DNA of 64,000 nucleotides, taken from positions 1 through 64,000 of the forward strand of contig JAGAPK010000016.1 of assembly GCA_017623295.1 (NCBI GenBank), in the 5' to 3' direction. Origin of the DNA: Lachnospiraceae bacterium. Lineage in GTDB: Bacteria; Bacillota; Clostridia; Lachnospirales; Lachnospiraceae. The notes under the pieces are model-generated. The model did not search any database, was not told where the DNA came from, and saw nothing but the letters and a program-made list of their open reading frames with translations. Position 1 is the first letter of the stretch; each line of letters opens with the position of its first letter. The position numbers were made by a program, and so were the translations under genes. Below, piece by piece: positions 22,006 through 29,612 of the stretch.

Positions 22006-22156
22006 TTTCAACGTTTGTTAAGATTGTGCTAAATCGGTGCTAATATCGTGTTTTCTTTTTGTTCAGTTTCCGCTAAAAACCATGTTTTTTAGTTCCATCG
22101 ATTTCATAAATTCAATATAATAAGCCTACAAAATATAGAAAGAGGGGGTAAACTCC

Positions 22157-25944: not shown

Positions 25945-26022
25945 TTTGATTTCCTCCTTATACTTTATTGTATGAAAATACTAACACATGGATTTTCGAT
26001 TTTACAGCATTTGAATCAATTC

Positions 26023-26110
26023 TTAACACTTATTTGGCGTAATCTTGACGTTTTTTTTACGTTCTCTTGGCACTTTTTTTACCCTTTCTTAGCGACTTTT
26101 TAACGATACT
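26023..26110. promoter_or_regulatory. array of eight 11-bp direct repeats, OmpR/PhoB-family operator
   Basis: Eight consecutive 11-base units start with TTAACA, TTGGCG, TTGACG, TTTACG, TTGGCA, TTTACC, TTAGCG and TTAACG at 26023, 26034, 26045, 26056, 26067, 26078, 26089 and 26100. Each ends T-rich. The consensus is TTNRCG plus five. An 11-bp direct repeat is the binding grammar of PhoB/PhoP/KdpE-class regulators, and a KdpE-like gene lies just downstream. The array ends 5 bases before the expected -35 of the kinase gene. Confidence 0.85.
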
Positions 26111-26114
26111 TTTG

Positions 26115-26143
26115 TTTTTCTTTTATACAAAACAAGTTATAAT
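26115..26143 (+). promoter_or_regulatory. activator-type promoter of the KdpD/KdpE-like operon
   Basis: A perfect TATAAT (26138-26143) has only TTTTTC at the -35 position 17 bases upstream. A good -10 without a -35, directly after the repeat array, suggests activation by a bound response regulator. Confidence 0.6.
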
Positions 26144-26205
26144 AAATGAAGATATACATACCTTAAATATATGCTTAAATGAAAAATAGTTTTGCGGAGA
26201 ATATT

Positions 26206-27279
26206 ATGTCAAAAACACTTAAGAATTTTATTTTAACTTTTTGCGGGTTGGCTGCTGCCACTATTTTTGCAATGTTCTTTTCACATTTTGCACCGGGTAA
26301 TTCTGGTAATATCGCACTTATTTATATACTGGCTCTGATTATTACAGTTCGTTATACCGATGGCTACTGGCCCGGCTTATTTTTTTCAGTCATTGCCGTT
26401 ATCTGCGTTAATTATATCTTTACTTATCCATATTATGAACTCAACTTTACACTCTCCGGATATCCTGTTACGTTTCTGGAAATGCTAGGCGCTGCACTTC
26501 TGACCAGCACCATGACCACTAATATGAAACAACAGGCACGGGTAATTGCTGAAAAGGATAAGCTTCTTTCTGAGACAGAAAAAGAAAAAATGCGCGCCAA
26601 TCTACTGCGTGCAGTTTCCCATGATTTAAGAACTCCTCTGACCAGCATTATTGGTGCAAGTTCTTCTTATCTGGAAAGCCGTGACATTCTTACCGAAGAT
26701 GAAAAAAATGCCATTGTGATTCACATCCAGGAAGATGCTAACTGGCTACTTAACATGGTAGAAAACCTTCTTTCGGTTACGCGTATTCACAATCAATCTT
26801 CCAAAGTAAAGAAAACGTACGAATCCGTAGAAGAAATTGTGTCAGCCGCAATTCTCCGATTGAAAAAAAGACTTCCGGAGGCCTCTGTCACGGTTTCTGT
26901 TCCTGATGAATTGTTGATTATTCCGATGGATGCTATTCTAATTGAACAGGTATTAATCAACCTGTTAGAAAATGCTATTATACATGCTCAAAGTGCCAAG
27001 CCTATCCTTTGTTATGTAGAAGACGGACCGCATTACGTTACCTTTCATGTAAAAGACTTCGGTGTCGGCATCGACCCTGACCGGTTAACCAATATTTTTG
27101 ACGGAAATTCTTATATCGGAAACAGCGAATCCGATTCCAATAAAGGAATGGGAATTGGTTTGTCCATCTGCAAAACGATTATTACAGCGCATAATGGTAT
27201 AATTAATGCTCAAAATCATTCACAGGGAGCAGAATTCTATTTTACCCTGCCAAAGGAAGAGGTGTCTTATGAGTCCTAA
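26206..27279 (+). CDS. KdpD-like sensor histidine kinase lacking the N-terminal KdpD/USP region
   Basis: The start at the ATG behind GCGGAGAATATT gives 357 residues. Residues 5-105 form a four-helix DUF4118 membrane domain as in KdpD, including RYTDGYWPGLFFSV. Then come a dimerisation/H-box VSHDLRTPLTSI (His139), N-box LLENAIIHA, and G-boxes DFGVGID and GMGIGLSICK. Full KdpD carries about 400 further cytoplasmic residues at the N-terminus that sense c-di-AMP or K+ in other bacteria; they are absent here. It overlaps the regulator gene by 11 bases. The repeat array upstream probably controls this operon. Confidence 0.92.
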   Translation: MSKTLKNFILTFCGLAAATIFAMFFSHFAPGNSGNIALIYILALIITVRYTDGYWPGLFFSVIAVICVNYIFTYPYYELNFTLSGYPVTFLEMLGAALLTSTMTTNMKQQARVIAEKDKLLSETEKEKMRANLLRAVSHDLRTPLTSIIGASSSYLESRDILTEDEKNAIVIHIQEDANWLLNMVENLLSVTRIHNQSSKVKKTYESVEEIVSAAILRLKKRLPEASVTVSVPDELLIIPMDAILIEQVLINLLENAIIHAQSAKPILCYVEDGPHYVTFHVKDFGVGIDPDRLTNIFDGNSYIGNSESDSNKGMGIGLSICKTIITAHNGIINAQNHSQGAEFYFTLPKEEVSYES

Positions 27280-27979
27280 ACACGAAATACTTTTAATCGA
27301 AGATGAACGAAACATCTGCAACTTTATTGTAACTACCTTAAAAAGCAATGATTACAAAGTAAACTACGCATTAAACGCATCCAGCGGGCTTTCTCTTGCC
27401 GCCGCAGGCTGTCCGGATTTGATTCTTTTAGATTTGGGATTACCTGATATGGATGGAATTGATGTCATTCGCAATATCCGTAACTGGAGCAATGTTCCGA
27501 TTATTGTGATTTCTGCCAGAACCCAGGAGAAAGAAAAAGTAGAGGCTTTGGATGCCGGTGCCGACGATTATATTACCAAACCTTTCGGTACATCCGAGCT
27601 CATGGCAAGAATCCGTACTGCACTCCGCCGTTCCACGATTAATAACAATATGCTTCTGCCAACTCAAAACCAATATGTTGCCAAAGATTTAGTGATTGAT
27701 TATGAAAAGCATATCATTACAATTGCCGGAAATATCGTTCATTTTACGCAGATTGAATACAAGATTCTTACCTATCTTGCTCAGAACGCCGGGAAAGTTA
27801 TTACTTATGATTCTTTGATTTCTCACGTATGGGGACCTTTTGCAGACAGCAACAATCGAATTCTGCGTGTTAATATGGCAAACATCCGTAGAAAATTAGA
27901 AAGTAACCCAGCCGATCCGCAATATATTTTTACAGAAATCGGCATAGGTTACCGTATGATAGACAATGAAAATCTATAA
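27269..27979 (+). CDS. KdpE-like OmpR-family response regulator
   Basis: The start at ATG (MSPKHEILLIEDE) within the kinase gene's end gives 236 residues. The receiver domain shows the acidic pair ED at 11-12, phosphorylation Asp55 in LILLDLGLPDMDG, Thr/Ser in VISARTQ and Lys in YITKPF. The winged-helix DNA-binding domain at about 135-236 includes TQIEYKILTYLAQNAGKVIT and NRILRVNMANIRRKLE. It is the obvious candidate to bind the 11-bp array at 26023-26110, either autoregulating or driving the micropeptide operon. It ends close to the opposing antiporter gene. Confidence 0.94.
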   Translation: MSPKHEILLIEDERNICNFIVTTLKSNDYKVNYALNASSGLSLAAAGCPDLILLDLGLPDMDGIDVIRNIRNWSNVPIIVISARTQEKEKVEALDAGADDYITKPFGTSELMARIRTALRRSTINNNMLLPTQNQYVAKDLVIDYEKHIITIAGNIVHFTQIEYKILTYLAQNAGKVITYDSLISHVWGPFADSNNRILRVNMANIRRKLESNPADPQYIFTEIGIGYRMIDNENL

Positions 27980-28004: not shown

Positions 28005-29612
28005 TTAATTCTCCTGTTCACAGATAACGACGATGTCCTTGCATCGAATCGTTGTCTGTCCATCAGGAATAATCGTTTCCTCATTTCTTCGAATCATTGT
28101 TACTAATGTATTTCTTGAAATCGGCAATTCCATAATTTTCTTATCGCACCATGCATGGTTCTTATCAACTACAATCTCCTGCAGCTGTATTTCATTATCC
28201 GCGTTATAATATGGAACATTCAAAATAAGATTATCCCCGGCAAGAAGCTTTGTATCTCCTTTGGGAATCAAAGTTTCACCGTCTCTTTTTATCATAACAG
28301 CAAGGGAATCTGACGGAAGCGCAACATCCTTTATCATACGATTCTCCCAGTTATGTCCTTCGTGAATGTGCATACGCAACAGTGTGATTGCCGTTTCTTC
28401 CTGATAGTCATTGAAGGTTTTTCTGACATCATTATCATCATCCACCATATCAAGCTTACGAGCTACTAAAGGAAGCAAAGAACCCTGTAAAGCTACTGAG
28501 AACAAGGATATCAGAAATACGATATGGAAAATATCATGCTCCAGTTCTGCGCCCTGTGCAATTACCATAATAGCAAAAACAATCGATGCTGCACCTCTTA
28601 GTCCCGCAAAGGATACCAAAAGACACTGTCGAAATGATGCTTTTACCGGCAAAAGAATAGCCGAAACAGCAATCGGTCTTGCAACAAAGTTCAGAATTAA
28701 GGCAATCACAAGCGCCGGTACAACTACCTCTGGCAGCTTATGTGGGAAAGAAAGAAGTCCCAACAGGAAGAACAGACAAATCTGCGCAAGTCCCGTAATA
28801 CCATCAAAGAAATGTACCAGTACCGCCTTATTCCGTAATTTACTGTTACCAAGAATAATACCGGCAAGATATACACTTAAATAGCCATTTCCACCTACTA
28901 TGGACGGCAATACATATGCCAGTAACGCAATCGCTATCATGAAAATCATATCCAGATTTTCTGCTTCAATCGAAATTTTCCGCATCAACCAGATAGCCGC
29001 TAATGCCACACCGATACCAAAAATGATGCCAAAAACAATCTGGGCAAAAACTAAGTACGGAATGGATGTCTGCTTTCCTCCCTGCACCAGTGCCAGACCT
29101 ATCATTGTCAGCATATAGGCAATCGGGTCATTACTACCACTTTCTATTTCCAAAAGTGGTGCTGTACCGCTTTTTAAACTAAGATTTTTGGAACGTAAAA
29201 TAGAAAATACTGATGCAGCATCCGTAGAACTGATTACTGCTCCAATGAGAAAACTTTCTGCCCATTCTATTTTCAGAATAAAGTGACATAACACACAGGT
29301 AATACCCGCCGTCAGAATAACACCTAGCGTAGATAAGGTAACCGCCTTACCAATAACCGGTTTCGCAGCTTCCCATTTTACACAGAAGCCACCATAAAAC
29401 ATAATAAAAATAAGTGCAACACTACAAACCTGTTCTGTCAGCTGATAGTTCTCATAATTGATACTAAAGATACCGTCCGAACCAAACATCATACCAATCA
29501 GCATGAATAAAAGAAGCGCAGGAACCCCTACCTTAGAAGAAAATCGTCCGAATAAAACGCATACTAAGATAACGATTGCGCAAAATAATATGTAGCCATT
29601 CATATTGTCCAT
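28005..29612 (-). CDS. K+/H+ antiporter of CPA1/NhaP2 (CvrA) type
   Basis: The 535-residue protein has about 12-13 membrane helices over residues 1-390. Antiporter core motifs are present: GADAIISSTDAASVFS-type segment (here LIGAVISSTDAASVFSILR) and ESGSNDPIAYMLT. Cytoplasmic residues from about 405 contain RCK_C/TrkA-C-like beta modules (PSDSLAVMIKRDGETLIPKGDTKL and ELPISRNTLVTMIRRNEE), which in this family sense ligands such as nucleotides. Its place next to a KdpDE-like pair suggests control of cytoplasmic potassium; K+ selectivity is inferred from family. Confidence 0.88.
   Translation of the reverse strand: MDNMNGYILFCAIVILVCVLFGRFSSKVGVPALLLFMLIGMMFGSDGIFSINYENYQLTEQVCSVALIFIMFYGGFCVKWEAAKPVIGKAVTLSTLGVILTAGITCVLCHFILKIEWAESFLIGAVISSTDAASVFSILRSKNLSLKSGTAPLLEIESGSNDPIAYMLTMIGLALVQGGKQTSIPYLVFAQIVFGIIFGIGVALAAIWLMRKISIEAENLDMIFMIAIALLAYVLPSIVGGNGYLSVYLAGIILGNSKLRNKAVLVHFFDGITGLAQICLFFLLGLLSFPHKLPEVVVPALVIALILNFVARPIAVSAILLPVKASFRQCLLVSFAGLRGAASIVFAIMVIAQGAELEHDIFHIVFLISLFSVALQGSLLPLVARKLDMVDDDNDVRKTFNDYQEETAITLLRMHIHEGHNWENRMIKDVALPSDSLAVMIKRDGETLIPKGDTKLLAGDNLILNVPYYNADNEIQLQEIVVDKNHAWCDKKIMELPISRNTLVTMIRRNEETIIPDGQTTIRCKDIVVICEQEN

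Follow-up and report, generated by a model that had tools for sequence, protein, structure and literature searches.

Why do eight 11-bp direct repeats, all in phase and all pointing the same way, stand upstream of a two-component system that resembles KdpDE? The question was raised for a stretch of 64,000 nucleotides of Lachnospiraceae DNA (the window), in which an initial annotation had described the array as lying between divergent potassium-related genes. The features concerned are collected in Table 1.

Table 1. Features at the array and its flanking genes in the window.
Feature	Position	Strand	Remarks
Second small ORF, 30 aa	25756..25848	-	one hydrophobic stretch, AGGAGG before start
Small ORF, 27 aa	25861..25944	-	one hydrophobic stretch, ends GFFGGIWYEHK, AGGAGG before start
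Candidate extended -10 of divergent promoter, TGTTAGTAT	25978..25986	-	from sequence
Outlying half-site, TTTACAGCATT (TTTACAG)	26001..26011	+	in phase, 22 bp before first array unit
Degenerate slot, TGAATCAATTC	26012..26022	+	between outlying half-site and array; in phase, without the core
Array of eight 11-bp units, core TTNRC	26023..26110	+	all oriented toward kinase gene
Two 22-bp pairs, candidate tandem duplication	26045..26066 and 26067..26088	+	16 of 22 positions identical
-10 TATAAT of kinase/regulator promoter	26138..26143	+	from sequence
Short KdpD-like sensor kinase	26206..27279	+	DUF4118, HisKA and HATPase_c above cut-off
KdpE-like response regulator	27269..27979	+	receiver and Trans_reg_C
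Potassium/proton antiporter	28005..29612	-	above NCBIfam cut-off; convergent with kinase/regulator pair

The units start at 26023, 26034, 26045, 26056, 26067, 26078, 26089 and 26100, just where they had been placed, with a step of exactly 11 bp. The core TTNRC was found in all eight, whereas the longer consensus TTNRCG of the initial annotation held in only five: the units at 26023 and 26067 end in CA and the unit at 26078 ends in CC. The C at position 5 was the most informative position of the unit, present in 8/8 units of the window and in 86% of the units of relatives. Dinucleotide-preserving shuffles of the stretch 25950-26180 (2000 in number, + strand) gave TTNRC runs of no more than 3 units at period 11 and no more than 4 at periods between 6 and 24, and a maximum of 4 was also seen in 40 shuffles of the whole window read on both strands. 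Head-to-tail half-sites at 11 bp are the arrangement of OmpR/PhoB-type direct-repeat operators. With the outlying half-site included, the in-phase series spans 26001 to 26110, interrupted only by the degenerate slot at 26012. Part of the array was called as a 22-bp period by Tandem Repeats Finder, and Rfam gave no match at the array at the gathering threshold.

Downstream of the array, the promoter of the kinase/regulator operon has the perfect TATAAT and the missing -35 that had been described: TTTTTC at 26115-26120, at a spacing of 17 bp, matches in only 2 of 6 positions. The last unit of the array ends 27 nt upstream of the -10 element. The kinase ORF has an alternative start at 26179. Neither the KdpD N-terminal domain nor a Usp domain was found before DUF4118 in this protein. 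The regulator ORF overlaps the kinase ORF by 11 bases and lies, as the initial annotation had it, 1.2 kb downstream of the array. The potassium relation claimed for both sides of the array was borne out only on the + strand, by the KdpD/KdpE-like pair; on the - strand stand the two small ORFs, followed by the convergent pyrG. No family above the cut-off was obtained for the 27- and 30-aa ORFs, the only match at E<=1 being a weak one to FeoB_associated. The KdpF family gave no match to them at E<=1, in a type of search that easily misses short queries.

The identity of the regulator points to KdpE. The best solved structural matches were E. coli KdpE (4kny, 4kfc); the entry 6lgq is filed under another name and has the same aligned sequence as these two. 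In a tree of 20 rows, the regulator formed a clade (support 100/99) with E. coli KdpE and with the KdpE of the same-genus genome G038, which is encoded beside kdpABC, to the exclusion of seven paralogs of the own genome and E. coli PhoB; four further own paralogs were left out of this tree, for which the tree tool gave a long-branch warning. Sequence identity was 46-48% to the E. coli and G038 KdpE proteins and 28-35% to the seven paralogs and PhoB. R193, R200 and T215, which are important for DNA binding by E. coli KdpE according to the accessible part of PMC3264566, are all aligned and identical in the regulator (numbering derived from the alignment), and the first of them is missing in all seven own paralogs tested and in PhoB. 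The NCBIfam KdpE model assigned 232 bits (232.3) to the regulator, below its cut-off of 325, and the protein is therefore filed as KdpE-like.

The DNA side agrees with the protein side. The published KdpE half-sites are TTTATA and TTTACA with a 5 bp gap, and their first two T are invariant across genera (PMC3264566, seen in part); judged by its sequence, the core of the array unit is equal to this half-site. In the E. coli promoter sequence (L088), where the KdpE site is present, ACTTTTTTTACAC is identical in 12 of 13 letters to ACTTTTTTTACCC at 26072-26084.

We consider it quite probable that the array is an enlarged, autoregulatory operator of the adjacent KdpE-type regulator, shared with the divergent small ORFs. 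This reading is based on a run of eight units against at most four in the shuffles, the conserved register, the KdpE half-site, the kinship of the regulator with KdpE and the linkage to the small ORFs. In the proposed mechanism, the short KdpD-like kinase would phosphorylate the regulator, and dimers of the phosphorylated form would bind head-to-tail pairs of 11-bp half-sites with the core TTNRC. The proximal pair (26089-26110), just upstream of the missing -35, would probably recruit RNA polymerase to TATAAT at 26138, by which the kinase/regulator operon would activate itself. Three further pairs and the outlying TTTACAG at 26001 would extend the chain of dimers across the gap to the divergent -35, and a single operator would in this way govern the regulator operon together with the two small membrane ORFs. 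What the sequence shows is the repeats with their phase and conservation, the fixed distance to the -10, the linkage with the small ORFs and the kinship of the regulator; binding, cooperativity, the order in which the sites fill and the activation of the operon are inferred. Repression of the small ORFs at high occupancy seems somewhat more likely than their activation, because a reversed half-site lies over their putative -35. The isolated DNA-binding domain of E. coli KdpE showed no cooperativity in the accessible text of PMC3264566; any cooperativity would thus need the rest of the protein.

Conservation was studied in 77 same-genus genomes, of which 23 had the kinase gene at E<=1e-100; a first kinase search had covered 60 of the 77 and returned 20 such genomes. 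Eight units were found in two of the 23 only, the own genome and G024, and six slots in the same register in 15. G044 has 4+2 units that are out of phase by 3 bp, and most or all of the array is lost in five genomes (G042, G043, G045, G023 and G360). The array of G027 is on a separate contig, C210. The end of C210 duplicates the beginning of the kinase gene, and the two were joined by reading and not by assembly. In array-bearing genomes the last unit and the -10 element are at a distance of 37-39 nt. The initial annotation had named loss of the period in close relatives that keep the genes as evidence against a KdpE-class operator: 17 of the 23 genomes retain register and -10 distance and the 18th has slipped, but five keep the genes without the period. 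With five genomes lacking the distal array and three of them lacking any direct pair, autoregulation by the array is evidently not essential.

The core itself was less well kept than the register. Among the 15 six-slot genomes, strict TTNRC was met in 6/6 slots in G030, in five in G046, G057 and G362 (the latter anchored by eye), in four in ten genomes and in three in G032. In other words, between one and three slots lack the core in 14 of the 15. Slots 3 and 4 account for most of these misses and carry a consensus of their own (TTATC and TTGAT); the usual pattern in relatives is thus a good pair on either side of a middle pair that is conserved but different. An unbroken strict core occurs only in the window and L010 (G024), with 8/8 units each, and in L011 (G030), with 6/6. 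That the unbroken eight-fold core is restricted to two of 23 genomes counts against the enlarged-operator reading. The KdpE-class assignment of the initial annotation gains from the 11-bp register in relatives, the half-site match and the KdpE-related regulator with its contact residues, and it loses from a strict core that is mostly broken. Overall, the initial annotation described a genuine feature and was for the most part correct in its interpretation, with potassium as the frame and occupancy of all eight sites as its more conjectural parts. Two slots ahead of the first unit, at the place of the outlying half-site, a strict core was found in L010, L011, L012, L018-L020, L022-L025, L027 and L202 and not in L013, L014 and L151.

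The sequence makes it likely that a tandem duplication of a 22-bp pair raised the unit count from 6 to 8. Comparison of L010 with L011 was fitted best by a 22-bp insertion after unit 2 (51/66); for the window itself the fit was weak, as alternative placements barely differ (42-46 of 66).

Of the genomes that lost the array, G045 and G023 (L021, L026) keep the proximal direct pair, and G042, G043 and G360 have two half-sites on the opposite strand instead (by eye). In these last three (L015, L016, L201) the direct array is replaced, with TTAGCAAAATTTTAGCAG on the opposite strand. G043, G360 and G045 (L021) share TTGACAYRGGCAACAAAATATCGTATTTTGTTAACC further upstream, which looks like an inserted promoter-bearing piece and did not appear in the part of G042 that was read. 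As the flanks are similar in several of these genomes, the five losses are not independent events.

The presence of the small ORFs goes with that of the array. In the first 60 genomes, the 27-aa ORF was present in 12 of 20 with the kinase gene and in none of the 40 others; the raw tally of 13/60 includes a match with E 0.043 inside a 712-aa frame of G039, which was taken as chance. Every one of the 18 array-bearing genomes had at least one small ORF: the 27-aa ORF in 13 (G370 included), and in the other five (G024, G030, G046, G057 and G362) the 30-aa ORF, which was read near the kinase gene only. Neither was found in the five genomes without the array. In G042, G043, G045 and G023 the 27-aa ORF gave no match genome-wide and the 30-aa ORF none in 9.5-12.5 kb around the kinase gene, and in G360 neither was seen within about 1.5 kb on either side of it. 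Since the small ORFs were not found where the array is lost, an event probably took out both. Two undescribed, conserved membrane mini-proteins are hereby tied to a KdpDE-like pair without an adjacent pump, and this link offers a route toward what the short kinase senses.

The geometry of the divergent promoter also involves the outlying half-site. Its reverse complement overlaps the -35 of this promoter: TGTAAA (26001-26006), the reverse complement of part of it, is located 17 bp upstream of the divergent -10 hexamer. Of 22 same-genus rows searched with a fixed pattern, 12 had the same spacing between the -10 and the outlying half-site, and ATACTA itself was present in 10 of them. The remaining 10 rows comprise two distant homologs, four genomes that lost the array, one sequence that is cut off and three array-bearing ones without a match.

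These data also bear on a narrower form of the preferred explanation, in which only the proximal pair serves the kinase operon and the distal units belong to the small ORFs, so that two operators adjoin each other. We regard it as conceivable, if doubtful. The two good pairs around a degenerate middle pair in most relatives would fit such a division, as would the observation that loss of the distal units goes along with absence of the small ORFs in 5/5 cases, two of which (L021, L026) keep the proximal pair. However, all units point one way, toward the kinase gene, the window and L010 have no degenerate slot between the pairs, and three loci of other genera (L058, L064, L066) have 2-4 units and no small-ORF match within flanks of at most 1.5 kb.

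These three loci came from a survey of 299 family genomes, in which the kinase gave 45 matches at E<=1e-100, one being the own genome; the upstream regions of the 44 others were read. The unit matrix was trained on 12 same-genus arrays with the window excluded, and scores within those 12 are high by construction. Seven of the 44 orthologs (L058, L059, L061, L064, L066, L077 and L082) have 2-4 in-phase units 37-39 nt before a -10 element, where at least two in-phase units, reached by at most 1 of 100 shuffles, were demanded and the -10 of L077 and L082 (CATAAT) was assigned by eye. Weakly scoring pairs stand at the right place in L092 (3 of 100 shuffles) and L094 (52 of 100). L056, L072, L076 and L102 had low shuffle counts but single units or no -10 at that distance. 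In all, 37 of the 44 orthologs, these six among them, had no significant array in the stretch directly preceding the kinase gene, which in several of them closely follows another gene. The gene context across these genera is mixed: other loci have unrelated genes before the kinase gene, with no potassium link, and the long ORF directly before it in several loci is presumably a D-alanyl-D-alanine carboxypeptidase. A locus with four units (L077/L107) is accompanied by a divergent ORF of the 27-aa type (58% identity) and, by eye, a second small ORF.

A more far-reaching form of the preferred explanation is that a KdpDE-derived system, parted from the pump and from the cytoplasmic potassium-sensing domains, governs itself and the 27- and 30-aa peptides via a bidirectional operator that grows dimer by dimer (2, 4, 6 and 8 good half-sites). 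We think this rather unlikely. If true, natural relatives would form a series in which the steepness of a bacterial switch could be tested against its number of half-sites. A conserved six-slot operator has probably grown to eight unbroken units here, and with relatives that have two, three or four units at the same promoter distance it makes up a natural dose series for asking how repeat number affects cooperativity.

It is improbable, in our view, that another OmpR/PhoB-type regulator, e.g. a PhoP/PhoB-like one, binds the array and controls the KdpDE-like genes from outside. Eleven other regulators of the own genome match over both domains, and PHO boxes are likewise 11-nt direct repeats, as stated in the portion of PMC4415409 available. 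Yet the best match of the array model was at the kinase gene in 14 of 16 same-genus genomes, the other two being genomes that lost the array, and the unit equals the KdpE half-site; the seven of the eleven paralogs that were examined all lack the KdpE-type arginine. In the own genome the array model, which is sequence-only, has six units and includes the units of the window, matched strongly at the array alone (E 7e-11; the next, E 0.08, lies in a coding frame), and no second strong array that would indicate a regulon was among the 150 of 2926 first-look candidates scored. It gave 18 matches at E<=10 in this genome, two of them the array itself.

Weak matches of a second kind (E 0.005-0.04) were picked up by the six-unit array model in 12 of 16 same-genus genomes. 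These sit on a TTAAGAAA-N11-GCCGATA promoter, which we take to be of the sigma-28 type, in front of a 71-aa ORF; a scripted rule found this promoter in 23 of 30 loci of that ORF. Twelve of the 30 loci are from genomes without the kinase, and five of the twelve show the same look-alike stretch (by eye), which is not seen by eye in the own genome or in G024. The 71-aa ORF promoter was therefore rejected as a regulon member and is considered unrelated. The ORF was found in 58 of 60 same-genus genomes, and in part of the genus a conserved CTGYTAAAAT stands upstream of TTAAGAAA-N11-GCCGATA (L163-L174 and others, e.g. L139 near 1500).

That the array is chiefly an intrinsic bend in front of a promoter lacking a -35, produced by phased T-runs with the core as a secondary matter, is very improbable: a wedge model does predict a bend (end-to-end ratio 0.829, as low in 4/300 shuffles and in 0.8% of the sampled 111-mers of the window), the same tendency ranks 1-16 of 100 in 14/14 same-genus arrays tested, window included, and the two middle slots keep their T-runs but not the core in most relatives, but A-tract bending does not demand the conserved C at position 5, and the 2-unit versions elsewhere are too short for much bend. 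According to this model, part of the repeat pattern may still serve DNA shape.

Regarding the signal, potassium is a guess that is drawn from the kinship of regulator and kinase with KdpDE. Of the clearly named potassium genes, that of the antiporter lies closest, and it is not divergent across the array; the antiporter stood beside the kinase/regulator pair in 4 of 18 loci of relatives examined (L034-L037). A few kb away are ORFs that we assume to be TrkH-like (L036 and L037) and TrkA-like (L037). In the own genome (87.75% complete) kdpA was not found, and the pair is not assigned to a Kdp uptake system, in which it would control kdpFABC. KdpA was above the cut-off in one of 60 same-genus genomes, G038, which had no match to the short kinase at E<=1e-100. 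One stretch of G038 (L084) contains a full-length KdpD-type kinase, KdpE, kdpABC and TrkH-/TrkA-like ORFs. No good half-site pair was present in the 190 bases upstream of trkA in the own genome, nor in the gap before the antiporter gene, where the best score was 6.9 vs 14.6-19.8 for the pairs of the array; no array was seen by eye in the stretch before kdpA of G038.

Compared with known systems, the array is most like the E. coli KdpE operator before kdpFABC, with which it shares the half-site (TTTAYA/TTNRC), the 11-bp step, the repeat direction along transcription and a regulator with R193, R200 and T215. That operator consists of two half-sites and controls kdpFABC, whereas eight (plus one) stand before a kinase/regulator operon and small ORFs in the window; the recognition site of OmpR/PhoB regulators is likewise described as one half-site pair (PMC3264566, all as far as the accessible part goes). 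Longer chains do occur. ArcA sites have 2-5 direct-repeat elements at 11 bp, that is, repeats beyond the two of a dimer, and there the footprint lengthens and filling depends on concentration; ArcA is, in contrast to the regulator proposed here, a different protein with two to five elements per site (PMC3798270, in the sections available). At pitH2, the site of Streptomyces PhoP consists of six 11-nt repeats, four of them core and two weaker; such chains of half-sites are filled by strength and give several complexes, but PhoP operators reach up to six units and belong to a phosphate system (PMC7866108, likewise seen in part). The letters of the E. coli- and Streptomyces-type PHO units differ from the array unit. 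Eight unbroken in-phase units exceed the examples of ArcA and Streptomyces PhoP given in these partly accessible sources, although the principle was already known. In the open literature we found no description of this locus or of a response-regulator site with eight direct repeats, and nothing related on KdpD/KdpE in Lachnospiraceae.

For the small ORFs the closest comparison is KdpF, a small membrane peptide belonging to the KdpFABC pump; in mycobacteria it has 30 aa, is co-transcribed with kdpABC and is regulated by KdpDE, as described in the available part of PMC3618439. The small ORFs resemble it in their length of about 30 aa, the one hydrophobic stretch and the position beside KdpDE-type genes. 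Unlike KdpF, they have no KdpF family match and no kdpABC beside them, and membership is not claimed.

Two other repeats were observed elsewhere in the window. On the - strand at 22011-22043 there are three TTNRC units with an 11-bp step (TTAGCACCGAT TTAGCACAATC TTAACAAACGT), which have no promoter context and possibly arose by chance; the gene whose end directly precedes them is, we assume, RelA/SpoT-like. Tandem Repeats Finder also reported a 36-bp tandem repeat at 2059-2218, with 4.4 copies and a 91% match.
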